64,000 nucleotides of DNA from Jaapia argillacea MUCL 33604 (Eukaryota; Basidiomycota; Agaricomycetes; Jaapiales; Jaapiaceae). The position numbers were made by a program, and so were the translations under genes. Within the stretch, counting starts at the first letter, position 1. Each line of letters starts with the position of its first letter. The notes beneath the pieces were generated by a model. That model was given only the letters and a program-made list of their open reading frames with translations. It was not told where the DNA came from and made no database searches. This document shows positions 2,043-61,600 of this stretch, piece by piece. The DNA lies in assembly GCA_000697665.1 (NCBI GenBank), contig KL197710.1, positions 2,269,036-2,333,035 on the forward strand, written 5' to 3'.

Positions 2043-2284
2043 GCTCACCGATGTGAGCAACGTCCAGCAGGCAGCAGTTTGAGCATGGGTTTCGCGCAAA
2101 AATAGCCGAGTGTGGCGTATCACATGCAAGAAGGGTTAGGGTGCACGTGACTGAGTCACGAGACAGAAGTGATTTCAGTCACATGATCGTGACCTGATGT
2201 TCGAGTCCCCAAACGGGCGAGTGGCCTTGTGCTGCCTGCCGAGTGCTGTCTTGCCTCATTTCTCGTATTTTGTGTGATATTTAA
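2043..2284. promoter_or_regulatory. Bidirectional promoter with palindromic E-box/bZIP-like sites
   Basis: This 242-bp gap separates the divergent starts of the TMEM135-like and LIM genes. It holds a TTAGGG at about 2136-2141, CACGTG at 2144-2149, a perfect 13-bp palindrome GTGACTGAGTCAC at 2147-2159 containing the bZIP core TGAGTCA, and an inverted repeat GTCACATGATCGTGAC at 2178-2193. CACGTG is the usual bHLH site and TGAGTCA the Gcn4/AP-1 site. Binding here is an inference. Confidence 0.45.
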
Positions 2285-5200
2285 ATGGGTTTCTGTCGCA
2301 GATGCGGCGAGATTGTCAATGCCGCCCGATGCAAATGCGGTGGTACAGCAGTCGGTATGATTTCATGTTTATTCAATGTGGTCTCCTATTTTACTCAATG
2401 GCGAACCAACTTTCTTCCACAGCTCCTGTTGTTCAATGGAACGCAGGAAATAATAGAGAAGACAACACGGACAGGTGGTCGAGGACGTACGTTAAAGACA
2501 CGTCTCCCACACGCAAAGTCCAAACTCCCGCGGCCACACCCATGGCTCCCCAAACAACAGGTCCTTCCACCTCCTCCAAACGCTTTCCTCGTCCAAACTC
2601 CGTCGCAGCCCCACCAGAAACTCCTCTCAATCCCCGCGTCTCAGCCCACATCGCATCCACAACCGCTTCCCGCCCGCCTTCCCCCCTCAAACAATCCTCA
2701 TCCTCACTCAACTTAACAGACTCACCCTCGGCAGCAGCCGCACAGGGTATCCTCCAATGCCCCCACACAGGCGAACTGTCAAAAGCTTACGGCTCAGTCC
2801 TCCAACCTAAAGAATCGCTCTCAAATTTCTGTTGTTTCATATGTTCCACTCCGTTCCCTCCAGACGCGACGATATACCCAGACCCAAATCCCTCCTCACC
2901 CTCTTCCGAGACCCGTTTCCTCTGCCGCGCATGCTTCACCACAAACGGGGGCTCCAAAGGCGATTGCACCGCATGTTCCCGCCCCGTCCTCATCCTGAAA
3001 ACCGAAGGAGGCTTCGTAGAGAACTCGGGACGTGTATGGCATAAACGTTGTTTCAGATGCGAAGGCTGCTTCAAGAATATTGGGGAGAGACCAATGGTCG
3101 ATTTGATGGGTAGACCTTCTTGTGCCGATTGTTTTGATAGTTGCTTGAAGCGACCTTCTCCTGGCTCCACTAACGCCAGTCCGCAAAGAAATCAGAGGGA
3201 GGGGGAGAACCAGACTCCGAAGAAGAGTAATTTGGGAGGGACGGCTGGGAGGAAGAGTATAGATGGAAGTCCCGCGCTGGATGAGTTGGAAGCTAGGTTG
3301 GGTATCGCGAAGAGCAGGGAGGGGACTCCCGCTCCTACCACTACGACCACCACAACCGAAGATGTCGGATCCAGGTCACGAACTTTGAGCACCAATAGTG
3401 TCAAGAGTCCTTTCAGCAAGGACGTCGACCGAGAGCGAGGGTACAGTCCCCTCACTTCTCGTTACGCAGCTACTATGGCCAGCAGGGAATCCAGCCCAAC
3501 AGTCGATCGTCTTCGCGGTCGGACTGAGGGTTCTCCATTTAATCGGTTTGCCAGTCCGGAGAGGGAAGGGCGGGTATCTGCTACTTCGACTGGAAGTCCT
3601 AGGTATACGGGTAGTCCTGGTGGGAAGGTGCCTACTCAGGATGCTATCGAGGAGATGAAACGAAGGTTCTTGAGGTCTTCTATCTCTACACCTCCACCTC
3701 CTGGCCCTGCTCCCGTGACCACCCCAGCCTCTGGTCCATCAACTTCACCCCCTCCAGATCCAGACAAGTCACCCACACCACAACGTTATACATCTCGTAT
3801 CCCCCGTCCTTCAGGGTCCCTCCGGGCTAGCTTATCTTCTTCCTCCTTGAGAGGCTTGAGGGAGAGGGAAAAAGACGCGGAAGGTGTTTTGGTCTTGCCG
3901 GATATACCATCCTTGTCGATGCGGGATGTAGCTCCGCCCACACCTGATTTAGTCAGTGATTTCGGGTTTGGGAGTAGTGAAGATGGGATGGGGAGTAGTA
4001 GGAGGAGTTCTGGGCCTGTTACGCCGCCTACTTCGGTTTCTGATTGTTTGGGTGGAGGGGGAGGGACGGGGGAAGAGGAGGATGTGTTTGGAGCTGGGAA
4101 TAGGATTTATACTAAGGCGCTTGGGAGGAGTTTGGGTGGGGTTGGGAAGGCTGGGATTGGGAAATCGCAGATACCGACTCCGTCGTCGACGCAAGGGACC
4201 AAACGAGTTAGCTTGCCGTCTACCGCGCCCCTTACCATCCCCGCTTCCAATACCACCGGCACTTCATCTTTACCTACGTCTACGACGTGTGCACGCTGTC
4301 ATCTCCAACTTTTCGCTGGGACTGGGAAAGGGGGAAAGTTTGTTACGGTACCTGAAGAGCCTAGCGTGAGTGGGGTACCCCCGAAAGTGTATCATGCGGA
4401 TTGTTTTGTTTGTAAAGTTTGTGGGGATGGGTTCCCTGAACGTGGTGGGAGAGCTGTTTTCATTAGGTGTGAGATGGGGGCTTGTCATGTTGAGGTGCGT
4501 TTTTTGGTTTTCGTGTCTTTGTTCAGTGGTGAGACTGATTTTGTTTGGATAGTGCGCACCTCCGGAGAAGATTATCACGAACTATACTGGGAACACGAAC
4601 GTTTCGAACTTTACTCCTCCGTCTGAATCTGGGAGTACGAGTTCGAGGACGTATACTGCGAATATCACTACAACTCCTGCCGTTCTCAAGACTCAAACTA
4701 CTTCCCATTCAGACACTTCTCAAACATCTGCTCGTCCCCAACTCAATTCCATCTCCACCTCCCGCGGAGATAGAGACGTCGATTTTGAATTACCACCAAA
4801 GACTGCTCCTCCTACGACGACCTCCTTCCCTCGTTGGGGCAGTTCTACCACCTGTCCTGGTTGTTTCAAGAGTGTATCGCCAATGGAGAGGGGAGTGGTT
4901 CCTGGACCTCAAGGTTCTCGATGGCATGCGAGTTGTTTGGTATGTGGGGGGAAGGATGCCAAGAGGAGGACTTTTGGGTTTGGGGAGGAGAGGAAAGTGG
5001 GGAAGGAACCTGGGTGTGGGAAGAAGTTGGATAGTGCTGCTAAGAGTGATGGGGAGGGTGGGGTTTGGTGTCGGGAATGTTTGGTGAGTGCTGCTTTTTT
5101 TTTGTCCGTTTGTTTTTGGGGGTGACTGATTTTTGTGTGACTGGGGTTAGTCGTTGTTACCGACGAGTTTGAGGGAAGGGTCTCCGACTCGAACGACTCC

Positions 5201-40228: not shown

Positions 40229-41845
40229 TCACCATCCCCCACTTCCCCTAACCTCAACCTCCAAACATTTCCTCAAACCCTCTCTCATCTCTCCGATTCC
40301 CCACTTCTCCCCTTCCCCCTCCCCTTCGACCCCACTGAAGAAAGGCCCAACACAAACTTTCGCAACACCCGTAAACACATCTTCCAATATCCAACGTAAT
40401 CGAGGACCCGTCATCTCGATAGCTGGCTCGGCGTTGAGTTCGAGGAGGGATATGCGCCATGGGGATGAGTTTTGTTGAGGGGCCGAGGTGGAGCGAGAGG
40501 GAGGGTGATGGGAGAGGAGAAAGTCGACTCCGAATAGTTCGAATGCGTTTGGTAAAGGCTGGTGAATGGGTTCGGAGTTCAGTTCGGAAACTCCACGGAA
40601 GAAGGTAAGAGAAGGGACGAACTTGGAAATGAACAGGCATTTCAAGAGCTGCTTTGAAAGTCTCCGCTAACACTTTACCCATCCGGACCTTGACACTTTC
40701 CACATCTTCTGGCGTCAGCACTTTCCCTTCCCCATCTGCATCGCCAATGACAGACCAACCAACGAGCTCGTCCAAGAGTCTTACATACTCCTCTCCTTGT
40801 CCCGGTTGTAAACAAGTATTCGTCAAATGTCTCGCCATCTCTTGTCCTTTATTAACTCCATCGTCTGTGGATGAAGAAAAGGAGGGGGAAGGGTGGGAGT
40901 AGGGAGATGAGGAGAAGAGTGCGAGGATGTGGTTGGAGAGGTAGAGTGTTAGGGCTCCGGAGGCGACGACGTAGGCTCTAAGGTGGAACTGTTTGTTAAG
41001 AGAGGTGGGTTAGACTGGAAGTTGGCGGTAGGAGGAGAGAAGGACGAACTTTATGGCCTGTGAGAGATGGAGTGGGGGGACGGGGGACGGAAGGAGGAGA
41101 GAGGAGGAGAGGCGTGTCGATGTATTCCTGGTGTCATATGAGATTAGATTGGATGAAGAGAGGAAGGAGGACGGAAGGAGCAACTGACTTGGATAACGAA
41201 ATGTCGAAGCTGAGAAGCGACGATCGAAGTGTCGTGATCTTCCTGATCATCTTCCTGGACATCCTCTTTGTCTTCCCCTTCATCCCCGTCATCGTCCTGC
41301 TCCTCAAACTCTTCAAAAATCTCTTGCAGTCTCCCTTTGGAATCAAATAACCTAATCCCCATCCCCCGATCCGCCATCCCAGGTTTCAAGATCCACCACT
41401 TCCTCTTCTCTTCACTCTCTTCCAAATTCATGTCCAATTCGATCCCAAGCTGATACAACTCTAACATCCAAGCCTCCTCGAGCTCATCAGCCCAACAGAT
41501 TTCCACCTCCCACGTCCTCGGCACACCTTGCTTCAACAACTTCGCTCCCTCGTCGTCAGGGTGCTTTGTTGTGTAAGAATGGATCGTGCGAGAGAGGAAG
41601 TGTTTGCGGATGAGGGCTTTGCGGATTATGTAGGATGAGGAGAGGGATGAGGATGGGTGGGAGAGGGTGAGTTCGTGAGAGATGGAGTCGTAGGTTGACC
41701 ATTGGAGGAGGTTGGATGGAAGGGGAGAGGGGGTAGGGGTAGATGTGGTGTGGATGGGAAGGGAGAGGCAGGAGAGGGCCTTGCGGACCAGAGAGTCGGT
41801 GAGCGGCGCCGATGGCCAGGATACAAAGGCTGTCGTTGAAGACAT
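40229..41845 (-). CDS. Tubulin-tyrosine-ligase-like (TTL) protein, Pby1-type
   Basis: TTL-fold enzymes are ATP-grasp ligases that add amino acids to proteins. The start is MSSTTAFVSWPSAPLTDSLV at 41845. Landmarks in order: YIIRKALIRKHFL, ELDMNLEESEEKRKWWIL leading to KPGMADRGMGIRLF (ATP-binding), FVIQ|EYIDTPLLL, then HKFHLRAYVVASGALTLYLS (the family HIRxYVL strand), EMARHLTNTCLQ (compare HLTNTxxQ), NAFELFGVDFLLSH, and LLELNAEPAIEMTG (metal-binding ELNxxP). It ends VEVRGSGGW. S. cerevisiae Pby1 has such a domain next to a SurE-like phosphatase part; no SurE part is seen here. At least three introns are needed, and joining EYIDTPLLL to HKFHLR appears to need a very small intron of about 31 bp. 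It shares a 252-bp divergent promoter with MMM1. Confidence 0.85.
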
Positions 41846-42097: not shown

Positions 42098-43502
42098 ATG
42101 TCCCAAAACTACCTCTTCACCCTCCAGCCCACCTTTACTCAAGGTCTCATCCTAGGCCAACTCTCCATCCTCTTCCTCCTCGCTCTCATCCTCAAATACC
42201 TCTTCCTCGAATCTTCAAATGACCCCGCCTCATCCTCACCAACCTCCGACTATCCTTTCGAGAGTTACCATCGCCATCATCACAAACATACCTCAGAAGT
42301 CGAAGTCAAAGATGCTGCCCTCACACAACAGCAACATTGGATGGCTGCGCGCAAAGCAGAGGAGGTGGTTGAAGAAGAGAACGTGGGGTTCGAGTCGGCA
42401 GAGTGGTTCAATATGTTGATACGACAGGTGAGTTTCAGTTTCTCTTGCATTGAAGTAATGTGTAAATGTGAACTTTGGTATAGGTCGTGCAGACTTATCG
42501 TTCGAAACTGAGAGATGATTTACCCGGTCCGGAGGGTGACGAAATTGCTCGGCAACGAATAGAAGACTTTGCCAACAAGATGAGACCTACAGGCGTCCTC
42601 GTACGTCTTCTCTCCATCCTCCCCGTCTCATTACCAGATACTCATGACGTGTAGGATCCCATACGAATACACTCCGTCGACCTTGGCATATCCGCACCCC
42701 GCCTCTCAAACGCCCGACTAAAACCACATAACCACTCTCCTCAACCATCCTCCGAACCCGAACTCGTACGTCCATCCCCAAACGACCCGTTCCCTATATC
42801 TCGCTTTCCCCTCTCCGACACACCACGTTCCCTCCACGCAATGACCTTCATGAAAAACTGATGGAACGTGGGCGGTTTTGTAGCAAGCTCAATTCGAACT
42901 ATCGTATACGGATACGGTATCGATATCACTATCGACAGCTTGCTTGTTCAACTACCCTTTCCCTTCTTTCGCGAGACTACCTGTCTCGCTAACAATATCG
43001 CTCTCACTTTTCTCATCACCTGTACGTATATATATTTCTTCTCCGCGCTTTCTCAAAGACTTACAACCAAACGCAGATTACACTAACAGCCCCCATACCA
43101 ACTCACCACTCACCGACCCTAACCCTCTCACTACCCCCACCTACATCCTCGGGACCAGGGTTCACACTAAACTTGAAAACGACATCGTTAATGGGGAGTA
43201 GGGCCAAATTAGCTGACGTACCCAAAGTAGGCGAGCTGATAGAAATGCAGGTATGATTCCATCCCTCCCCCTCAACCTGGTAGTCAAAGTGGAATTGAAC
43301 GATGATGTAGATACGCAAAGCACTATCGGATCGAGGGACGTGGAAGATCGTCCTTCCTGGTTTGGGAACGGTGGAAGAAGCGAAAGAGGAGATTAAGAAG
43401 GAACATGAACATAAAATGGAGGAACGGAGAGTGAAGGAGCAGATGATGAATGGGTTGGGTGGGGAGGGGGATGGAGAGGGGAGTGTGGACGTTTCGGATT
43501 GA
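42098..43502 (+). CDS. MMM1: MMM1, ERMES complex SMP-domain protein (copy A, canonical)
   Basis: Mmm1 is the ER-anchored subunit of the ER-mitochondria encounter structure and moves phospholipids between the two membranes through its SMP domain. The short N terminus MSQNYLFTLQPTF is followed by the membrane helix GLILGQLSILFLLALILKYL, the family's typical motif. The SMP domain begins FESAEWFNMLIRQVVQTYRS, then RIEDFANKMRPT, PIRIHSVDLGISAPRLS, AQFELSYTDTVSISLST, LPVSLTISLSLFSSP, SPTLTLSLPPPTSSGPGFTL and IRKALSDRGTWKIVLPGL. Five introns fit GT-AG (first 42428-42483). A charged tail ends GSVDVSD. Copy A lacks the kinase-derived leader and has the usual N terminus, so I take it as the ancestral gene. 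Confidence 0.93.
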
Positions 43503-44081
43503 GTGGTCGTAGGATGGGGAGGGGAGAGATGAGTGTTCGAGTGTGAGGCTTGATTGGATTCTCGGTATGATTGACGACATCCTCGACGACACCCATTGAG
43601 ACTACATTTGGAATCTTGCAATTGCCATACCCGACCGCCCATGTTTTCGGTTTGCATTGTACACTTCCGATGTTTCGCTTACTCCCTACTCTGCACGTTT
43701 TGATAGACCGATTACAGCAGTAGTTTCCGATATTTATTACCTTTGAAGTTCTGTTGGTTTGTTGTATTGAACGATCGTATAATTTTTTTCGTGAGCGCCT
43801 CGTTTGCTTTGTATATTTGGAGGCGGCATGGAACTTGAAGCAAGTAGCAAGATTTGAAACTCGTCCTACTACGTTTCACCACACAACATCTCTAGTGCTC
43901 TCTAGTAGCTCTAACAGTAACTCACTCTAATCTCATGGATAGGCTGCTGGGATCGATGAACTCTATGTTGTACGTACCCCTGGTGAACTCTATGTTCGTA
44001 TCCCTGGGAAGGCTACGAACATAGAGCCCGCCACCATCATCGTACAATTGACTAGCACAACGTGACTCAAGTCTGAATTCC
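43503..44081. other. Spacer between MMM1 copies A and B
   Basis: This 579-bp stretch has no gene. Near 43961-44030 a GAACTCTATGTT sequence is repeated directly and again inverted (GAACATAGAG), which could form a stem. The promoter of copy B would lie here. Confidence 0.4.
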
Positions 44082-45328
44082 ATGCCTCTCAATTCCGAAA
44101 CGCCCAAGGCGGTCAGTTCCAGTATTGCACAAAATCGTCTCGTGTTCATTCGAGGTCTCATACTTGGTCAAATATCCATCCTCTTGCTCCTGGGTCTCAA
44201 ATACGTGTTCCTGGGGTCTTTCGTCTCCGTCTTTTCGGAAACGTGGCAAACCCCCGACTATCGAAAAGATAGCCATCGTCACAACCGTTTGGCAGAGTTT
44301 GAACTCCACGATGCTGAGATGACGCGAGGAGCAACGAATGTGGGGTTCGAATCGGCCGAGTGGGCCAACATGGTGATAGCACAGGTATGTTTCGGTTTCT
44401 CTTGGGTCAGGAGCCTTATATACAAGGATTTGGTATAGGTCGTTCAGACATATCGCTCGAAAATGAGAGATGATTTACCTGGTGAGGAAGGCGATGAAAT
44501 TGTTCGGCGGCGAATTGAACATTTCGCCAATAAGATGAGACCTACCGACGTTCTCGTAAATTCCCCCTTCTCACAATTCTATCTCGTTGGCAAATTTGTG
44601 AGACTTTGGGATTGTGTGTAGGGCCCCATACGAATTCACGATGTCAACCTGGGCGTATCCGCACCCCGTGTCTCTGGCGTGCATTTAATACCACCAGCTG
44701 AACATTTTCTACGACCTTCATCCGAGAATGAACTTGTAAGTTTAGTTCCAGCCCCCCTTATACCTGCGCTTTGCGGGAATCACACATGATGCTGATGGGA
44801 TATCTTGGTTCGGTCTAGCAAGCACAATTTGAAGTATTCTACGAAGACTCAGTGTCGATATCGTTATCGACAAGTTACGTGGCCAAGATTGCTTTCCTCC
44901 CCATCCATCTACTAGTCTCCCTGCGCATCGATCTCTTGAATTTCTCTTCACCCGTACGTTGTTATTCTCACCTTTTCTCGAATACTTAAAGCCAACGCTA
45001 GATAATGCTTACAGCTCCGACAACAAATCACCCTTCGCCAACCTTGACTCTCACACTACCTCCACCTCCACCGTCAGGCCCTGGATTCACACTTGAACTC
45101 AATATGACGTCGACGTTGCACATTATCGTCCCATTAGACAATTTTCCCCTGGTGAAGGAGGCGGTCGGGATGGAGGTACGTCCACCTCCTCACTTACCTT
45201 TCATGAAATTTGTTAATGGACCTCGATAATGGGCGTAGATCCGCAAAGCTATATCGGAAGCTGGGACTGTGAAGATAGCCCTTCCAGATCTATTCGCCGC
45301 GGGAGGAGGAGTGGAGCAAGAAGTATGA
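44082..45328 (+). CDS. MMM1-like paralog, copy B
   Basis: The start MPLNSETPKAVSSSIAQNRL at 44082 aligns with residues KPLTCETPNARSSR within the leader of copy C, so the start has moved inside the kinase-derived leader. The membrane helix GLILGQISILLLLGLKYVFL is shorter by one or two residues than in A. The SMP part reads FESAEWANMVIAQ, QTYRSKMRDDLPGEEGDEIV, GPIRIHDVNLGVSAPRVSGV, FEVFYEDSVSISLSTSYVAK, LLVSLRIDLLNFSSP, PSPTLTLTLPPPPPSGPGFT and IRKAISEAGTVKIALPDLFA, with a short tail GGGVEQEV and the stop at 45326-45328. All introns have GT-AG ends and the frame is open throughout, so it may be expressed. It lacks the long charged tail of copy A. Function beyond Mmm1 likeness is unknown. Confidence 0.8.
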
Positions 45329-45374
45329 ACATAGCATGAGGAAATGCTAGCTGTGGATAGGATGGAGACCTTGG

Positions 45375-45553
45375 AAATCCAAGTCACTCAAGGCCGAGGC
45401 TACCAGCGCAAGCGCTCCTCAAGCTCAAGCTCATACTCGTCCCCCCAGTCCTCTACCAAAGCTGCATCCACCACGCCCAACGCGCCTTCCCTCTCGCTCG
45501 GTCTACTCCTACGAACGCCTCAATCAAATCGAAGAAGGTTCCTGCGGCAGTCT
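45375..45553 (+). pseudogene. Stranded 5' coding fragment of the CDK11-like gene
   Basis: This stretch matches the 5' coding part of the kinase gene at about 49464-49668 at the nucleotide level: both share AAATCCAAGT, GAGGCTACC, GCGCAAGCGCTCCTCAA and the run CCCTCTCGCTCGGTCTACTC continuing through CTACGAACGCCTCAATCAAA into GAAGAAGGTTCCT. It lacks an internal piece of some 25-30 bp and stops matching at the kinase glycine loop, where the sequence diverges. It has no start of its own in a useful context and no kinase core, so it is a dead remnant left by the duplication. Confidence 0.85.
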
Positions 45554-45844
45554 AGATGGGATATCTGTCGGTGAAGGGTGGTTCCGCATTTAGTTTCATT
45601 TTTCAGGTTGGCGGTGTTATTTACGCAAGTATAAGCACTGTTCCCTTATCCACAATAAGTTTAAAAGTGTGAAACCCGAATTCCTTGAACTTATTGTCCT
45701 TCTGAATGACAATGTGAACTTCAAGAACAAGTCACAAACGCGTTCACCACGCAAGTGATTCTCCAACTGCCTACTCGTGCACCCCATCCTTGAACCTCGT
45801 GGATAGATGGGTGTCCTGAATCGCTCTTGATCCAACGAGCATCA

Positions 45845-47243
45845 ATGGTTTCCACCGTCGCGGAATTCCCTCAGCCACCTGGTAAAAAGTTAAGATGGGG
45901 CGACGACATAGGGCCAGACGGCAGTAGTGCCCTCAGGCCCCCATCTCCCACAAGTCTGAAACCCAAGCCTCTCACTTGCGAAACACCCAACGCCCGCAGC
46001 TCGAGGACCACGAAACTTCATATCCGGTTCATTCTGGGTCTGATCCTTGGTCAATTATCCATTCTCTCGCTCCTCGGTCTCACCTTCAAATACCTGTTCC
46101 TGGAGTCTTCGGTCTCTGCCTTTGAAACGCGGGGAATCTCTGATTACAACCGTCCGACAGAGTTTGGATTCAACGATGGTGAGATGACACGAGAAGAAGC
46201 GAATGCCGGGTTCGAGTCGGCTGGGTGGTTCAACATGTTGATAGGACAGGTATGTTTCGGTTTCTCTTGGGTCAGGAATCTTATGGACAAGGGTTTAATA
46301 CAGGTCGTTCAGACATATCGCTCGAAATTGAGGGATGATTTACCTGGTGAGGAAGGTGATGAAATTGTTCGGGGACGAATCGAAGATTTTGCCAATAAGA
46401 TGAGACCTACAGACGTCGTCGTACGTCCCCCCTCCTTTCGCCTTCATTTCGTAAGCAAAATTTGAGCTGTCGGGATGTCGTGTAGGGCCACATACGAATT
46501 CACCATGTCAACCTAGGTGTATCTGCACCCCGTGTCTCGGACGTGTATCTATTACCACCAGATGAACATTTTCTACGACCTTCATCCGAGAATGAACTTG
46601 CAAGTTTAATTCTAGCCCCCCTTATACCTGCGCTTTGCGGGAGTCACACATGATACTGATGGGATATCTTGGTTCGGTCTAGCAAGCACGATTTGAAGTA
46701 TCCTATGAAGACTCAGTCTCGATATCGATATCGACAAGTTACAAGTTTGACTATCCTTTCCTCCCCTCCTACCGAGTGCCAGTCTCCCTAGACATAAATC
46801 TCTTGTTTTTCTCTTCACCCGTACGTATTCCTTACATTCCCACCTTTCTCCAGAGCTTACAATCAATATCTTGTCTTTTACAGTTAACGTTTACAGCTCC
46901 CATCCCGATTTACCCTTCGCCAACGTTGACTCTTGCATTGGATCCGCTTCCACCTTCGGAGCCTAGGTTCACACTCCGCCTGCATACGAAGTCGGTGGTG
47001 GGAGGCATGTTCAAAGACTTGCCTCAGGTGAGAGAGTTGGTCGAAGTGGAAGTATGTCTGGCTGTCTACTTTCCTCTCCTGAAAATTTGTAACGACCCTC
47101 GATGATGGGTATAGATCCACAAAGCCATTTCGGAATATGGGGCGTTGAAAATCGTCCTCCCAGATCTATTCAAGAAGCATGAACATGACGATGAGGAAAA
47201 GTCATTCTTTGAATGGGGATGGCGGGCGAGAGTGGGGATGTGA
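45845..47243 (+). CDS. Chimeric MMM1-like paralog, copy C, with kinase-like leader
   Basis: The ATG at 45845 gives MVSTVAEFPQPPGKKLRWGD and then GPDGSSALRPP, resembling the CDK11 start ([31 protein letters not shown]). About 60 residues of leader run in frame into the MMM1 helix GLILGQLSILSLLGLTFKYL. The SMP part follows: FESAGWFNMLIGQ, QTYRSKLRDDLPGEEGDEIV, GHIRIHHVNLGVSAPRVSDV, ARFEVSYEDSVSISISTSYK, VPVSLDINLLFFSSP and IHKAISEYGALKIVLPDLFK. The stop is at 47241-47243. The intron at 46601-46682 begins GCAAGT where copy B has GTAAGT, so it needs GC-AG splicing to keep the frame. If translated as read, it is a fusion with a kinase-derived N-terminal tail placed ahead of the ER anchor. Confidence 0.8.
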
Positions 47244-47797
47244 TTTCGGACTTGAAGGGTAGGGTAGATGTTTCGAGTGTATCGAGGCATCTGACATCTT
47301 GAGATCATTGATGATGATTGCGATTGAGATTATTGATGTTATGTCTGCCCAGGTCTCGTTATATGGAACAGGCGTCCACTGATTATCGCGGCTTGAAATG
47401 GGGCGAGTTGGGGACCTTGGAATGGCGTTTGTGCCGCTACCGATCAGCTTACTGGATGATCCAATGACACCCTCAGGCTCCAAGGTCGTGCCAGGGTCGT
47501 GTCTTGCTTGTTGTGAATTGCTGCGTGGGAAGGTGATCGTGAAGGGGCTTCGCACACGCAGCCACCACGACAGCTCAAGCACCTGATCCTCATGGACGGG
47601 TGGTGGCTTGGGCGACGGTTTCAAACTGCTTTTGATCCTGACTTGATCCCGCCGTGGAACAATGGTCACCACCGTCGCAGAATCTCACAAACCGCCTCCA
47701 AAACCATTAAGATGGGCTAACGACACAGGACAAGACGACTCGTCTCCTCCTCCAACGCAAAACATGCCGAGCCCGAGATCCAAGTCCGAATCGCCCA
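47244..47797 (+). other. Spacer C-D with out-of-frame kinase-like leader
   Basis: The first part (47244-47661) is spacer without a gene. From the ATG at 47662 an open frame reads MVTTVAESHKPPPKPLRWAN and GQDDSSPPP, like the start of copy C and of the kinase gene. This frame does not join the MMM1 frame of copy D: it runs on to a stop near 47949 in another register. It could act as an upstream open reading frame or be a decayed leader. Confidence 0.65.
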
Positions 47798-48965
47798 ATG
47801 CCAAACAAACTTCATCTCACGTTCGCCCAAGGTTTGATCCTTGGTCAAATATCCATCCTGTTGCTCCTTGGTCTCACCCTCAAATACTTGTTTTTGGAAT
47901 CTTCGATAACTGCGTTTGCGAAGTTCCAAGGCAACTATCCTTTCGATAGTTGTTATCACAACCGTTCGACAGAGTTTAAGGTCAAATATGGTGGGTTGAA
48001 AGAAGAGGGCGTGGAGTTCGAGTCGGCCGAGTGGTTCAATATGTTGATAGGACAGGTTAGTTTCGATTTCACTTGGATCGATGGAATTTTATGGACGGGG
48101 ATTTGGTATAGGTCGTTCAGACATATCGCTCGAAATTGAGGGATGATTTACCTGGTGAGGAAGGTAGCGAAATTGCTCGGCGACGAATAGAAGATTTTGC
48201 CAATAAGATGAGACCTACCGACGTCCTCGTACGTGCCCTCCCTTTTCCCCACTTTATTTTGGTACCAAACGCTGATACATTGGGGTGGTGTGTAGGGCCC
48301 CATACGGATTCGTCATGTAAACCTAGGAGTATCCGCACCCCGTCTCTCGCACGCGCGTCTAGTACTACCAGATGAGCTTGAACTCGTAAGTTGAACCCGA
48401 ACCGCCCACTTCACTTGACCCCCACATGATACTGATGAACGCACTTCGGTTCGGAGGTATAGCAAGCGCAATTTGAAGTATCCTACGCAGACTCAGTCTC
48501 GATATCTTTATCGACAACTTATCTGCTCAACCCTCCTATCATCCGTTTCTCTCGATTACCAGTCTCTCTGTCAATATCTCTCTTGAATTTCTCTTCACCC
48601 GTACGTATACCTATTATTCCCACCTTCTCCACCACTTACAACCAGCGGCCCCCCTTTACAGATAACGCTTACAGCTCCGATACCAAGTCACCCCTCACCA
48701 ACCTTGACTCTTGCATTACCTCCACTTTCACCGTCAGATTCCGGGTCCACGCTCGAACTCAATGTGAATTCGGCACTAGGACGCATGGCCACAATAGAAA
48801 ACTTGCCTGTGGTGAGACAGTTGGTCGAGACGAAGGTACATCTACCTGTTGTTCACTTCGCTTGTCTGCAAGTTTGTGACGAACCGGGCGCAGATCCGCA
48901 AAGCCATATCGGAATACGGGACGTTGACGATCGTCCTTCCAGATCTATTCAAAGCGGGAGGATGA
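47798..48965 (+). CDS. MMM1-like paralog, copy D
   Basis: I place the start at 47798 (MPNKLHLTFAQGLILGQIS), which restores an N terminus much like copy A, with helix GLILGQISILLLLGLTLKYL. Next come FESAEWFNMLIGQ, QTYRSKLRDDLPGEEGSEIA, GPIRIRHVNLGVSAPRLSHA, AQFEVSYADSVSISLSTTYL, LPVSLSISLLNFSSP, PSPTLTLALPPLSPSDSGST and IRKAISEYGTLTIVLPDLFK, ending AGG with the stop at 48963-48965. Introns have GT-AG ends. The linker after exon 3 (VLPDELEL) is shorter than in B and C. The upstream ATG at 47662 in another frame may reduce its translation. Confidence 0.78.
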
Positions 48966-49343
48966 GGGTGGCAAGGAGTGTGAACAACGACCAGGAAATA
49001 CTAGCTGCAGGATAGGGTGAAGATCTTGGGCAAAGATGGGGATGGTGTTTCAGCCTTTGGGGTGGGGGGGGTAGATGCTTCGAGTGTATGGATGGATTTG
49101 GTATCTTGGGTTCTTTGCACGATCTCCGGCTCTAATTGAGACGATTACTTACCTTCCATCACACCTTGGGAATTCGCTATGTTCATCGGAGTCCTCCCGT
49201 TCTCGGTATTTTCTGTGGCCTTTGAAACCTTCAGACTGTTGAAGGATCACCATTGTCAGTGTAGCCGGGCCGCTTGCCACGTGGACTGTTCTGCGCATCT
49301 GCTTCCGTCGTTGACTGTTCTTCATCCCACCCTGCATTAAGCA
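48966..49343. promoter_or_regulatory. Spacer and promoter of the CDK11-like gene
   Basis: The first 150 bp resemble the sequence downstream of copy C (shared GTAGATG.TTCGAGTGTAT), showing the duplication extends past the stop codons. The rest should hold the kinase promoter; no gene is visible. Confidence 0.45.
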
Positions 49344-50907
49344 ATGTTTTCAAGCAACGCAGAATCATCTACTCCTTCTCGAAAACGGTCAAGATGGGAT
49401 GACGAGGCAGAACAAGACGACTCTACTGCCCTCCTACCTCCCCTACAGCCAAAAAGACGTTCAAAATCCAAGTCTCTCAAAACTGAGGCTACCGGCGCAA
49501 GCGCTCCTCAACCTCATACTCGTCCACCCCCACCTCTACCAAAACTGCATCCCTCACATAGCATCTATGCACCACCGCGCATCTTCCACCCACCCTTCCT
49601 TCCCTCTCGCTCGGTCTACTCCTACGAACGCCTCAATCAAATCGAAGAAGGTTCCTATGGCGTCGTCTTTCGTGCCCGTGATAAAATCACAGGTGATATA
49701 GTCGCCCTCAAGAAACTAAAGATGGACGAAGAGAAACATGGCTTTCCCATCACCGCGTTGAGGGAGATTAATGCGTTGATGAGTTGTAGACACGAGAATG
49801 TCGTCAATATCAGAGAGGTTGTTGTGGGCGATACGTTGACACAGTACGTGGTGGATTTTTGGTGTGTTACTTAGCTCAAATGTCAATATATCTCTTTTTT
49901 TCTGCTGTTACATGTGAAATCTGGCGTGTCCCGTGGTTTGTATACACGTCCAAGAGTATTTGTGGTCATGGATTTCATCGAGCACGACCTCAAGACCCTC
50001 CTCACACTCATGCCATCTCCCTTCCTCCAATCAGAGATCAAGACCCTCATGATACAATTACTCTCAGCCGTTGGTCATTGTCACGAACGGTGGATCCTTC
50101 ATCGAGATCTCAAAACGAGTAATCTCCTGATGAACAACCGCGGGACGATCAAAGTAGCGGACTTTGGGCTTGCGAGGAGGTATGGTGATCCTGTCGGTGT
50201 GGGTGGGTTGACACAGCTCGTGGTCACGCTTTGGTATCGGTGAGCCAACTAAACTCTTCCAAGACCCGATCAGAATTAACGTCCCAACCACTACAAAGGG
50301 CACCCGAAGTCTTAATGGGAGCCACCACATACTCAACCGCCATCGACATGTGGTCTGTGGGTTGCATCTTTGCCGAACTCCTCCTCAAAGAACCCTTATT
50401 CCAAGCCAAGTCTGAACTCGAACTAATCTCCATGATTTTCAAACTCCTCGGTCCTCCTACTTCCTCTTCGTGGCCCGAATTCTCGTCGTTACCCTTGGCA
50501 AAGTCTCTATCACTTCCTGCACCACATCATGGAGGGATGAGACAGCGCTTTCAGTATTTGACGAATGCAGGTTTGGATTTGATGGGGAAGATGTTGACTT
50601 ATGATCCTGAGAGGAGGATAACAGCGGAGGAGGCCTTGCAGCATCCGTACTTCAAGTATGTAGTTTTTTGTTCCTGGATTGGTCTGTTTGACTTATGGAA
50701 TCATCTAGAGAATCGCCGTTACCGAAGCATCCCGACTTGTTTGGTTCCTTCCCCTCAGCGGCTGCGGGTGAAAAGTTCGTGGCCATGTCCTCTCATTATT
50801 TTCCCATGCTCATCATCAACCTTCATAGGCGCAGGAAATTCGACAGCCCATCAGCTCCTCGGCACGCCATCGACTACAAGCTCATCACCGACTTCGATCT
50901 TGTATAA
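49344..50907 (+). CDS. CDK11-type cyclin-dependent kinase
   Basis: A Ser/Thr kinase of the CDK10/CDK11 (PITSLRE) group, which in other eukaryotes acts with cyclin L in transcription and splicing. An N-terminal tail rich in Lys/Arg ([27 protein letters not shown]) precedes the kinase core: [29 protein letters not shown], the PITALREI helix, [57 protein letters not shown] and [18 protein letters not shown]. The EHDLKTLL and [10 protein letters not shown] motifs point to CDK11 over CDK9, though the cyclin-binding helix reads PITALRE. All catalytic residues (K, HRD, DFG, APE) are present. Four or five introns fit; the tail ends [20 protein letters not shown] then FDLV at the stop 50905-50907. Its 5' end is the source of the leaders in the MMM1 array. 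Confidence 0.9.
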
Positions 50908-51310
50908 TACCAAGGAGACACTGTATATATATCTACAATGCGTACAAGACATCAAGAAAATATGGATGGCCCTTCCGAGGGCCCATTACAATGGGCAAAC
51001 GACAGAGCTACTAATACCGAAGAGACACTGTATATATACCTACAACGTATACAAGACATCAAGAAAATATAGATAGCCCTTCCGAGGGCCCAATTACGAT
51101 GGGCGAACGACAGAGCCACCATGACAACGTAACTATGATATACGGACAAACCAAACTTCCCTGAATGCGAATCAGGGTCTACAGGCATACAGTCCCAGAT
51201 GTCAAGAAATACAGATAGCCCTCACGAGGGCCCAAATTCAATGGGCGACCGGCAGAGCCACCATGACGATGCAATTATGATATACGAACGAACCAAACAT
51301 CCTTGAATGA
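50908..51310. repeat. Three-unit imperfect tandem repeat with GC hairpin core
   Basis: Three related units of about 105-170 bp follow the kinase stop codon. Each has CATCAAGAAAATAT (or GTCAAGAAATAC), GATAGCCC, then CGAGGGCCCA and ATGGGC with GACAGAGC or GGCAGAGC. GGCCCTTCCGAGGGCC at about 50969-50983 can fold into a short stem. Units 2 and 3 also share GCCACCATGAC ... TATGATATACG ... ACCAAAC. Units start near 50908, 51012 and 51185. They could lie in the kinase 3' UTR or mark a separate small element. Confidence 0.8.
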
Positions 51311-58097: not shown

Positions 58098-58601
58098 GGC
58101 CAGCAGGAGATGCGTCCCGCTCACCGTCGGAGAAATCAGAAGAGGATAAGAGTGGATGGTTCACGAGGTCAAGCATCGTCAGCGCTTGCCTCGAAATTTT
58201 TATGGGAGTAACGGCGTCACAGCGGGTGTCACCCATCAAACTTCGGACAAATGGAATTAATCCGGGATCAACGTCAGGACTGCGTTGGGCTTCATGGGGC
58301 CTCGTAGAGTGATGCAGACGGCGGCGAAAGAAGGCTGGGCGACGGGAAGAGCGGGGGGGAGGGGATGCAAGCGAGAATTCGGGGGCTGAGCGACGCTGCA
58401 GAACCGTGGCCTGAATTGGAAGGTGGTGAATTAGTGCTTCCACAATCGAACGGTCAACCCGGCTGAGCATAGTCAACACCAATTGTTCGGATTTTGGAGA
58501 GGTCATGTTGTGAGTTACGTCTCTGGTTTACCATTCGTCAGTTCCCTCATTCCCTATCGCTATTTCTCCGTTTTCCAAGGCCACAAAATGGCAGTCAAGA
58601 T
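58098..58601. promoter_or_regulatory. Divergent promoter of the DUF1764 and SWI1 genes
   Basis: This 504-bp gap separates divergent starts. I see no distinct motif. An ATG at 58588 in another frame precedes the SWI1 start by 14 bp and could be an upstream start. Confidence 0.4.
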
Positions 58602-61600
58602 ATGTTTTCCCACAGGCAACAGCAGTCGATGCCCTCGTCGTTTTTGCCTTCCACCCCTTCAAATCCCGGGCAAGAAAGCAATCCGTACTTCAATCTCGAC
58701 GCATCGCAGGCAGCGAAGCAGATGGCGGCTCTAAATGCCGCTAGTTTGGCCCGAATGAGCAACCGCTCTGCACCAGGCGGAACCTCGGCCTCATTTCTCG
58801 GAGCAACTTCGAATACCAATTTCAACGTTTTGGCCCAACAAGGCGATCCTCAAAACGATATCTCCACAACGCCTTTTAATCCCCAGGCACCAAATCATCA
58901 GCCGAACATCATCCCAATCTTCACAAACCCGGCTCCCGATCACTCCATGTCTCATCCTCCCACTGCTCCCCGTCCGCAGAACAACCAACTCCAGAACCAG
59001 CAGAACCTTCAGGCTCGCAGACGTGGCTTCCTCACCTCCCTCGCTACCCTGCACATCCAACGGAATACTCCTCTTCCCCCCGCATTGACAGGTGTCCAGT
59101 ACCCGCCTAATTACGACCCGGGAAATTCACAATGGAAATCTCTCGAATGCCCTGATCTCGGTTTCGTTCGTTTGGCGGGCAAAGATATTGACTTGTTTCG
59201 GCTATGGGGCACTGTATTGCAGGCCGGTGGGCTAGCCAAGGTGCGTTCTCACTTGCTTATCTCCCTGACTGTGCTTTACGAGAACTCTCGTCACGTCTCT
59301 CCGCCACAGGTCAATCAACAAAACGCTTGGAGTAGCCTCTTGGCTCATTTTGATTTACCTGAGCATTTCCCCAGCCAACCAGCCCAACCCGTCGTTCCTG
59401 TCCTTACCCAACTCTACATCACCCTCCTCGCCCCTTTCGACGACCAATACCGACGAAATATGATGAACCAACAACAGAAGGCTATGCTAGCCGCTCAACA
59501 AGCGCAGGGACCCCAGACGCCCGCACGACAAGTGGGTCAAATGCCTGGACCTCCTGGCATGAATCTCCAGCAGCCTCCCGGACGTCCACAACAACCAGGA
59601 TTCCCGGGGCAAGCCGGTCAGATACCCAATGGGACCATGCCAAACATGAACATGATGGGGATGGGTATGATGGCCCAGCAGCCAGGTGCTGCTGTATCCA
59701 ACCCTATACATATACCACCAGCACCTGGAGCTCCCCAGTTTCCTGGCGCGCAGCCTATGCCTTCCCAAACCCCACACCCACCATCCAATGGACATGGTGT
59801 ACCTGCAGACGCTCGTCCTCCCGTACTCAGCTCCATGCCCTCGTCAGACTCGCTGACGGGTGGGATGTCAGGGATGAACCCGATTCATCCGGTTCCTCAG
59901 CCCAATGGAGCGTCCATGGTGGGGGGTCCCAGCCAGTCGTTGGATATGAGCATGTCTGCCGAGCTCGATGGTGACGCAGAGGGGAAGAAGAGGAAATCTC
60001 GGGAATCGGAGGAATCAGACGGAAAACGTGCCCGAGCTAGAACAGGTGAGTCACCGTCGATAACCCTCCGCCCCATCACACTCCACGGGATGCTGACCCT
60101 AATAACGAGGTGGATCTGAACCCCCAGATTCATTCACTGTGAGTCCACAGAACTTTATCTGATAGATGTAACGTTCTTGTACTAAACCTTTTTCGCCGGT
60201 GCTTTTAGGGTCTTCCCCAGAATGCCGCAGCTCCGTTTGCCGCCACACCCATGCCGCCTCGTGTTCAACCATCGCGAAGGAAGATCGAATATGTCCCATT
60301 TGCGAGGGAGGTGGAGACGTATGGTGGGCGCGACCTGAACCACATCGAAGATGAGCTTGTCAGAGTCTCCAGAGGGCGCCCGCTGCGAGACATCAATGAA
60401 TGGGGCAACGTCGATATTGAAGCCTTGACGATGTCCATTCGGTCACGGTTGGCGGTAGAGTTGTCATACGCTTTGACAACTTTCACGCTACTGTCGACCA
60501 TGAGAGGTCAAACTCCTACGTCGGGTTTCCCAATCTTTCAATGCCAGGATCTCTTGGAGGAGACCCTCGATTTGTTGGAGGACATCGCTTTTGATGGTGT
60601 CGAGGAGGAGGAGGACTTCAAAGTGCCGAATGGTGACGACCACATAGTCACGCATCGCGAGATTGTCAATACTGTGCATGACGAGGGGAATCAGCCCTTC
60701 ATATCGTTGGATAAGAAGCAGGGCTCCAAAGGTTCCGAAAGAGGACCACGACAGAGGCCAGGCGACCTGATCTTAACGATTATGAACATCTTGCGCAACC
60801 TCTCTATCATTCCCGACAACCAGCAGTACCTCGCACTCCAAACTCGCCTGTTCGATCTCGTTCTCCAGGTATGTCGCGCGACATACGACAAAGATGGCGG
60901 GCTATTTGATACAATCCGTCCCACATCCCCAGTCCTCTCTCTTGCCGACTTGATCATTGTACGAAAGGACGCCCTCAATATCCTACTCAACACCGCCGGT
61001 ACACTCCAGTTATCAGCGTCGAAAACTCCCTCTTCAAGAGAGATGCGCAATGCGGCGAGAGCTTTCGAATTGATGGTATCGTTCTTGGTGGACAAAGTTG
61101 AGGCGGTTACCCCCATGGGTTGCGTGATGATGTCCGGTGTACCATTAAATGGTAACCTGAAACCTCCGACGACAGCGGACGTTGCCCTGGAAGTCTTCAC
61201 GCGACTCTGCCAACCTGACTCCAACCGGCGGGTCATCTCAAAGTCGGTCCCTCAAGATTGGCTTTGGCTTCTCCTTGAAGCTCTCATTCATCGATTGCCC
61301 TTGTCGGACGTCGACTATCAAATCGCCATGCGAGATCAATGGCTAAGCTACATCGAGAAGACTATCATGGCCATCTATTCTGTCACCTTCATGGCTCCAC
61401 CGGTGCTGAAGAATAAGATCAAGAAGAATCGGACTCTCGCTTTTGGGAGTGTGATGTTGCGAGTGGTGAAGAAGTTCATGCTTTATTCCGCCCCCGACGT
61501 GCGGGTGTTCTTTGTCGTGAGCGCTCGTAGGGCGGTGGAGGCAATGAAGCTGGTTGACGATGGCGCCGATGCATTTGATACGGGTAGCTCGTCCGCTGCT

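Follow-up and report, generated by a model that had tools for sequence, protein, structure and literature searches.

Mmm1 is the ER-anchored SMP lipid-transfer subunit of ERMES and normally comes as one gene per genome. The window analyzed here, a stretch of 64,000 nucleotides from Jaapia argillacea MUCL 33604, holds a row of four Mmm1-like genes next to a CDK11 kinase gene, with sequence resembling the start of that kinase ahead of some of them. This raises the question of how such an array could have arisen, and what might have become of its additional copies and of the kinase-like leaders joined to them.

A tandem array of four Mmm1 genes

All four copies lie on the forward strand, and their splice models were made by hand, being predicted from the sequence alone. 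Copy A (42098-43502) codes for 353 aa in exons 42098-42427, 42484-42600, 42655-42765, 42884-43021, 43077-43250 and 43311-43502; copy B (44082-45328) codes for 310 aa in exons 44082-44384, 44439-44555, 44622-44735, 44819-44953, 45002-45175 and 45239-45328; copy C (45845-47243), the chimeric version, codes for 356 aa in exons 45845-46249, 46304-46420, 46486-46599, 46683-46820, 46884-47051 and 47115-47243; and copy D (47798-48965), read from the ATG at 47798, codes for 282 aa in exons 47798-48055, 48112-48228, 48296-48385, 48463-48600, 48662-48835 and 48894-48965. Thus spliced, each copy features six exons and five introns in homologous places, with every intron in phase 0, and none of the four contains an internal stop. 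The 20 introns all end in AG acceptors and 19 of them begin with GT donors, the sole exception being the GC donor of intron 3 of C. Further, the Pfam MMM1 profile, whose cut-off is 21.9 bits, recognizes all four copies above that threshold, with 108.7 bits for A, 82.0 for D, 63.7 for C and 41.5 for B. The tandem of four MMM1-like genes proposed in the initial annotation is thus borne out.

A nucleotide alignment of the four copies together with the kinase 5′ end established the homology of the copies, as well as a likeness between the kinase and the leaders of C and D that exceeds that of shuffled sequence. The identity of the aligned units is 75.7% for B and C, 72.1% for C and D, and 70.8% for B and D. 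It might be supposed that the assembly had made a false tandem out of a single gene. We rejected this explanation because the divergence between the aligned units, approximately 25-30%, is far above sequencing error or haplotype difference; the array also lies in the interior of its contig, more than 2.2 Mb from the contig start, and an artefact of this kind strikes us as exceedingly improbable.

Mmm1 identity of the copies and their genomic setting

The MMM1 profile, 244 positions long, covers A in two stretches and B, C and D in a single stretch apiece that falls between profile positions 15 and 144. Among solved structures, A has its closest relative in the Z. rouxii Mmm1 (PDB 5yk6, E 1.6e-21, residues 98-298), and so does C (residues 123-320, E 7e-7). 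In A, a hydrophobic stretch starting at residue 16, GLILGQLSILFLLALIL, was judged by eye to be a putative transmembrane (TM) segment. The array copies would share with the fungal Mmm1, the ERMES subunit represented by the Z. rouxii structures 5YK6 and 5YK7, a TM-like stretch followed by an SMP domain.

We found no second Mmm1 locus in the 43.7-Mb assembly using the array DNA, the B exon-1 peptide, or the MMM1 profile as queries. Outside the array, the array DNA matched only CDK11 itself, and the B exon-1 peptide matched only the four copies. The profile search, which was run exon by exon, missed B and C and gives lower bounds, returned five rows: three within the array (two from A and one from D) and two elsewhere. 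For both of the further genes outside the array, Pfam reports MMM1 alone; from their layouts and N termini we take one to be a PH-like plus SMP gene and the other to be an Mdm12-like gene, and on these grounds we rejected them as candidates for a second Mmm1 locus. The genome also has one Mdm10 locus. The array seems to hold the only Mmm1 of this genome, and A is likely its normal, working version.

The CDK11 gene and the leaders derived from it

The array is followed on the same strand by an intact CDK11 gene, the donor of the leaders (49344-50907; 428 aa; exons 49344-49843, 49955-50239, 50299-50655, 50709-50774 and 50829-50907). Its product is closest to CDK11, scoring 416 bits to CDK11B versus 280 bits to the best CDK1 chain; CDK11B accounts for its three best PDB matches, and the Pkinase profile recovers it with 221 bits. 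Its kinase domain is like that of human CDK11B, whereas the part preceding the kinase domain is here about 90 residues, and pieces of this part have been copied into the array twice.

The leader of C (45845-45997, end approximate), placed by DNA and protein alignment and a frame check, and that of D (47662-47797) both match the start of CDK11. As DNA, the D leader clearly matches the 5′ end of CDK11, its score being reached by 0 of 1000 dinucleotide shuffles, and the C leader matches it moderately (10 of 1000). At the protein level, none of 2000 shuffles reached the score against the first CDK11 codons for either leader, so both exceed shuffled sequence. For the B leader, likeness to the kinase is undetectable both as DNA, against the 5′ end of CDK11 (685 of 1000 dinucleotide shuffles reach its score), and as protein (1793 of 2000 shuffles), and the region upstream of A shows none as DNA (600 of 1000 dinucleotide shuffles). 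The C and D leaders do align with one another (E 4e-6 as DNA; as protein, no shuffle out of 2000 reaches the score), and the alignment of B to C begins at 44068, 14 bases 5′ of the B ATG at 44082, and takes in the distal leader. The B leader (44068-44120, end approximate) is thus a remnant of the distal part of a C-type leader, demonstrated through C rather than through the kinase. The earlier claim that the leaders resemble the CDK11 start therefore stands for C and D, and for B solely by way of C. The run AAGATGGG followed by ACAAGACGACTC, quoted for these leaders in the initial annotation, occurs unaltered in both D and CDK11, and C has AAGATGGG without ACAAGACGACTC.

The copies also differ in how the leader is read. 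In C, the whole leader is in frame with the Mmm1 part; in B, the last part alone is translated, as the B ATG falls inside the remnant; and in D, the leader does not share the frame of the SMP part but lies in an open frame of its own, which continues to 47949 (95 aa), and the SMP frame can begin at the ATG at 47798. We considered whether splicing could restore a chimeric D: five GT-AG candidates were found, none with a consensus donor, and we judged this unlikely. As the frames are read here, D does not encode a chimeric protein, and a full in-frame chimera is encoded by C only.

Searching the genome with the CDK11 5′ end as DNA gave two matches, CDK11 itself and a piece behind B. The CDK11 start as protein gave six; four of these are at other loci and span query residues 53-164, on the kinase-domain side. 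Neither search recovered the C or D leaders, and similarly diverged copies elsewhere would escape both. Within the reach of these searches, we rejected a dispersed or mobile leader, as the DNA matches lie in the array locus only and the protein matches elsewhere belong to the kinase-domain side.

The piece behind B, which is absent from the initial annotation, is a fragment of CDK11 exon 1 (codons about 38-107) lying immediately 3′ of that copy, at about 45366-45551 on the forward strand. It matches CDK11 with an E value of 4e-38 as DNA and 83% amino acid identity over codons 38-107, with pS 0.21 and pN 0.13 across 61 aligned codons. The C and D leaders are more diverged from CDK11 than this fragment, differing at 30-38% of sites. 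A short stretch 5′ of the fragment has its counterpart on the 3′ side of D (score 42; maximum of 200 shuffles 28), from which it would appear that the 3′ end of an Mmm1 gene was brought together with CDK11 exon 1 behind B in a recombination of its own. The fragment would mark an event separate from the fusion that gave rise to the leaders.

Origin of the array

The homology of the C and D leaders supports the earlier proposal of a tandem duplication adjoining CDK11 with capture of the first kinase codons ahead of Mmm1. We infer that the neighboring pair Mmm1-CDK11 was duplicated in tandem, with breakpoints in exon 1 of CDK11 (at about codon 50) and near the Mmm1 start. Such a duplication would have brought the opening kinase codons into frame upstream of the Mmm1 TM segment, and the fused unit would then have been amplified to yield B, C and D. 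C and D align through both leader and SMP domain, and B and C through the distal leader; this sharing speaks for a single fusion and its later amplification rather than for repeated fusions, a reading that draws on one genome, and it leaves unsupported the earlier suggestion that the kinase was cut early each time. Part of the spacer behind C is also similar to the spacer behind D (score 48; maximum of 200 shuffles 29), as would be expected of a repeated unit.

In a tree of four rows, the order of which we do not press, B and C pair as sisters at 100% bootstrap, both with and without a tract of unusual likeness between them (44751-44824 in B and about 46615-46688 in C, forward strand). Of 5000 permutations, 2 score as high as this best B-C segment, as against 456 for the best segment of B-D and 157 for that of C-D, which suggests that the tract is the product of a gene conversion. 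The conversion would have come after the amplification. As for the leader, B would have lost its front, that of D would have slipped out of frame, and C would have kept it.

Selection on the additional copies

Comparisons of A with B-D gave dS of 0.97-1.12 and ω of 0.26-0.37 by NG86, and ω of 0.28-0.43 by YN00 and ML. Among B-D, NG86 gave dS of 0.41-0.44 and ω of 0.48-0.62, and YN00 and ML gave ω of 0.63-0.83. A branch-model codon likelihood over 268 shared codons assigned ω of 0.22 to the branch joining A, which also takes in the stem of B-D, and 0.75 to the remainder (p 2e-7 for the difference); the departure of 0.75 from 1 is marginal (p 0.036). Taken singly, none of the copies differs significantly from 1 (B 0.96, p 0.88; C 0.61, p 0.08; D 0.65, p 0.19). 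The ω of 0.75 on the non-A branches amounts to relaxed constraint, and judged by their codon substitutions B-D are open frames evolving under it. Gaps not divisible by 3 in the exon alignments of the six pairs (8, 7, 6, 4, 5 and 0) were attributed to gap placement by the nucleotide aligner and were not used.

Relaxed constraint invites the explanation that B-D are decaying pseudogenes, silent or useless since the amplification, whose open frames reflect luck or a recent loss. The ω of B near 1 (with C and D at about 0.6), the broken leader frame of D and the GC donor in C are what one would expect of decay, as is the fate of conserved residues: of the 63 residues on which A and Z. rouxii Mmm1 agree, B retains 33, C 39 and D 42, and of the 127 other aligned residues they retain 85, 80 and 85, respectively. 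Preferential retention of the A/yeast-shared residues is thus absent in B-D (Fisher p 0.058 for B, where fewer are kept, and 1 for both C and D), in a comparison made without an ortholog positive control. However, all three copies are free of stops at approximately 0.2 substitutions per site, an outcome that neutral change, simulated in the form of substitutions only at 0.17-0.20 substitutions per site, produced in just 4-21 of 2000 trials for each copy. This objection is weakened by the simulation at 0.10 substitutions per site, where zero stops are less unlikely (59-129 of 2000 trials). The near-complete set of splice signals also speaks against decay, as does exon 2, which is still constrained and has the lowest ω among B-D (pooled 0.21, bootstrap 0.07-0.69, versus 0.54-0.79 for the other exons). 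On balance, we regard plain decay as unlikely.

B-D look to have been released from the ordinary Mmm1 task while still coding for protein, either until recently or now. Of the 63 residues common to A and Z. rouxii, 16 are altered or absent in all three; together with the presence of four tandem copies and the CDK11-derived tail of C, this sets the array apart from the fungal Mmm1 as otherwise known.

The kinase-derived tail and possible roles of B-D

Between the C and D leaders, 25 of 80 sites are different, with counts of 6, 9 and 10 over the three codon positions, and their JC distance of 0.40 is close to the synonymous distance between the two copies (0.44 by NG86, 0.37 by YN00 and 0.34 by ML). 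No amino acid constraint on the C/D tail was seen in these 80 sites, though weak constraint would be compatible with so few. With the leader drifting roughly as fast as synonymous sites do, the tail has the look of a passenger. The suggestion that it confers a new function is not supported, given that the whole leader is in frame in C only and that C and D have diverged there at about the synonymous level.

The accompanying premise that the lumenal N terminus of Mmm1 is normally short does not hold generally: 110 residues precede the TM of Z. rouxii Mmm1 (PMC10648710), and residues 1-97 of the yeast Mmm1 are termed lumenal and dispensable (PMC13151913). A long tail, then, need not harm the protein, nor need it help. 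The net charge of the 15 residues before and after the putative TM is 0/-1 in A, +2/0 in B, +4/0 in C and +1/+1 in D. By the positive-inside rule, which relates the charge around a TM to its topology, the +4/0 of C could mean that its tail is cytosolic.

These features bear on a further explanation, namely that B-D constitute a new set of neofunctionalized or regulatory Mmm1-derived SMP proteins, in which constraint has narrowed to the exon-2 region and the yeast-shared residues have been let go. Such proteins might pair with A or act at another ER contact, thereby dampening or redirecting ERMES, with the kinase-derived start of C, basic before the TM, changing how that protein is inserted and seated in the ER membrane. 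The kept frames of B-D, the concentration of their constraint in exon 2 and the differing charges around the TM would fit such a role. So would the helix positions that we equate, by spacing alone, with F201, V205, I208, I209 and F212, which are hydrophobic in all copies, with a change of F to A in B. The corresponding residues of yeast Mmm1 are lipid-contact positions mutated in PMC13151913, and Mmm1 paralogs of Parabasalia are reported with a modelled heterodimer backed by coIP (PMC10648710). Against this stand the lack of visible amino acid constraint on the tail and the behavior of exon 2, which in comparisons with A, too, is under tighter constraint than any other exon (ω 0.12) and so shows nothing new; its bootstrap interval among B-D also overlaps that of exons 4 and 5 (0.42-0.96). 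The constraint on exon 2 in the A comparisons led us to lower our estimate of this explanation, and we hold it to be quite improbable. It is possible that B-D act as rival copies with altered ERMES function, as the initial annotation had offered.

Taken together, we think it probable that a single fusion at a tandem-duplication breakpoint produced a unit that was then amplified, with conversion between B and C, leaving A as the normal Mmm1, B-D as released SMP proteins and the tail as a passenger. This best explains the shared phase-0 introns, the intact frames, the leader homology, the likeness of the spacers, the contrast in ω, the loss of residues and the divergence of the tail; it is weakened by the marginal test of ω against 1, the moderate DNA match of the C leader, and the stop-free outcomes in the simulation at the lower divergence. 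On this single-fusion account, B-D would probably make ER-anchored SMP proteins without the usual job of Mmm1.

Comparison with known systems

Chimeric genes arise at tandem-duplication breakpoints, and fusion genes have reportedly been found in Oryza. The array resembles such chimeras in that the 5′ coding end of a neighbor is joined to a duplicated gene; it differs in that no constraint is visible on the captured piece, which just one of the three copies keeps fully in frame. No report of a fungal Mmm1 duplication or of an Mmm1-CDK11 fusion was recognized among the matches listed in our literature search. Outside the fungi, PMC10648710 describes expanded, non-identical Mmm1 paralogs within one genome in Parabasalia, including two copies without a TM in T. 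vaginalis. The likeness to these protists lies in the several non-identical Mmm1 copies per genome; here they form one tandem array with a leader from a neighboring gene, and no link between the two is implied.

Implications

As we read it, the array would record the stepwise birth of a chimeric gene, with fusion, amplification, frame loss, truncation and conversion all within a 9-kb stretch. If B-D are made, this genome would offer a natural series of adjacent Mmm1 variants, in which a normal copy is followed by three released ones. Such a series could reveal which residues ERMES needs, and whether extra copies of Mmm1 compete with the normal one.

Features in and around the SMP gene array

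The intact kinase gene CDK11 (49344-50907, forward strand) has near its start, at codons 12-21, a stretch of 10 residues (49377-49406) that resembles the U2AF ligand motif (ULM). The RW of this stretch is retained in the CDK11-derived leader of copy C (45845 to about 45997) and the CDK11-like leader of copy D (47662-47797) of the tandem Mmm1-type SMP genes. A ULM is reported for SAP30BP, a partner of CDK11, in a passage of PMC13324802. Directly behind CDK11, the region 50905-51309 contains tandem repeats of 107 nt (two copies, 89% matches), along with two related 103-nt copies (84%) and a palindrome-like short stretch inside the repeats.

Within the array, intron 3 of copy C (46600-46682) begins with GCAAGT, compared to GTAAGT in copy B. 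On the other side of copy A, the adjoining gene on the reverse strand (41144-41845) scores 27.5 bits against the tubulin-tyrosine ligase family, for which the cut-off is 20.1. Elsewhere in the window, open frames on the forward strand feature an ARID domain (58473-60119; 40.1 bits) and a LIM domain (2278-4626; 37.7 bits).
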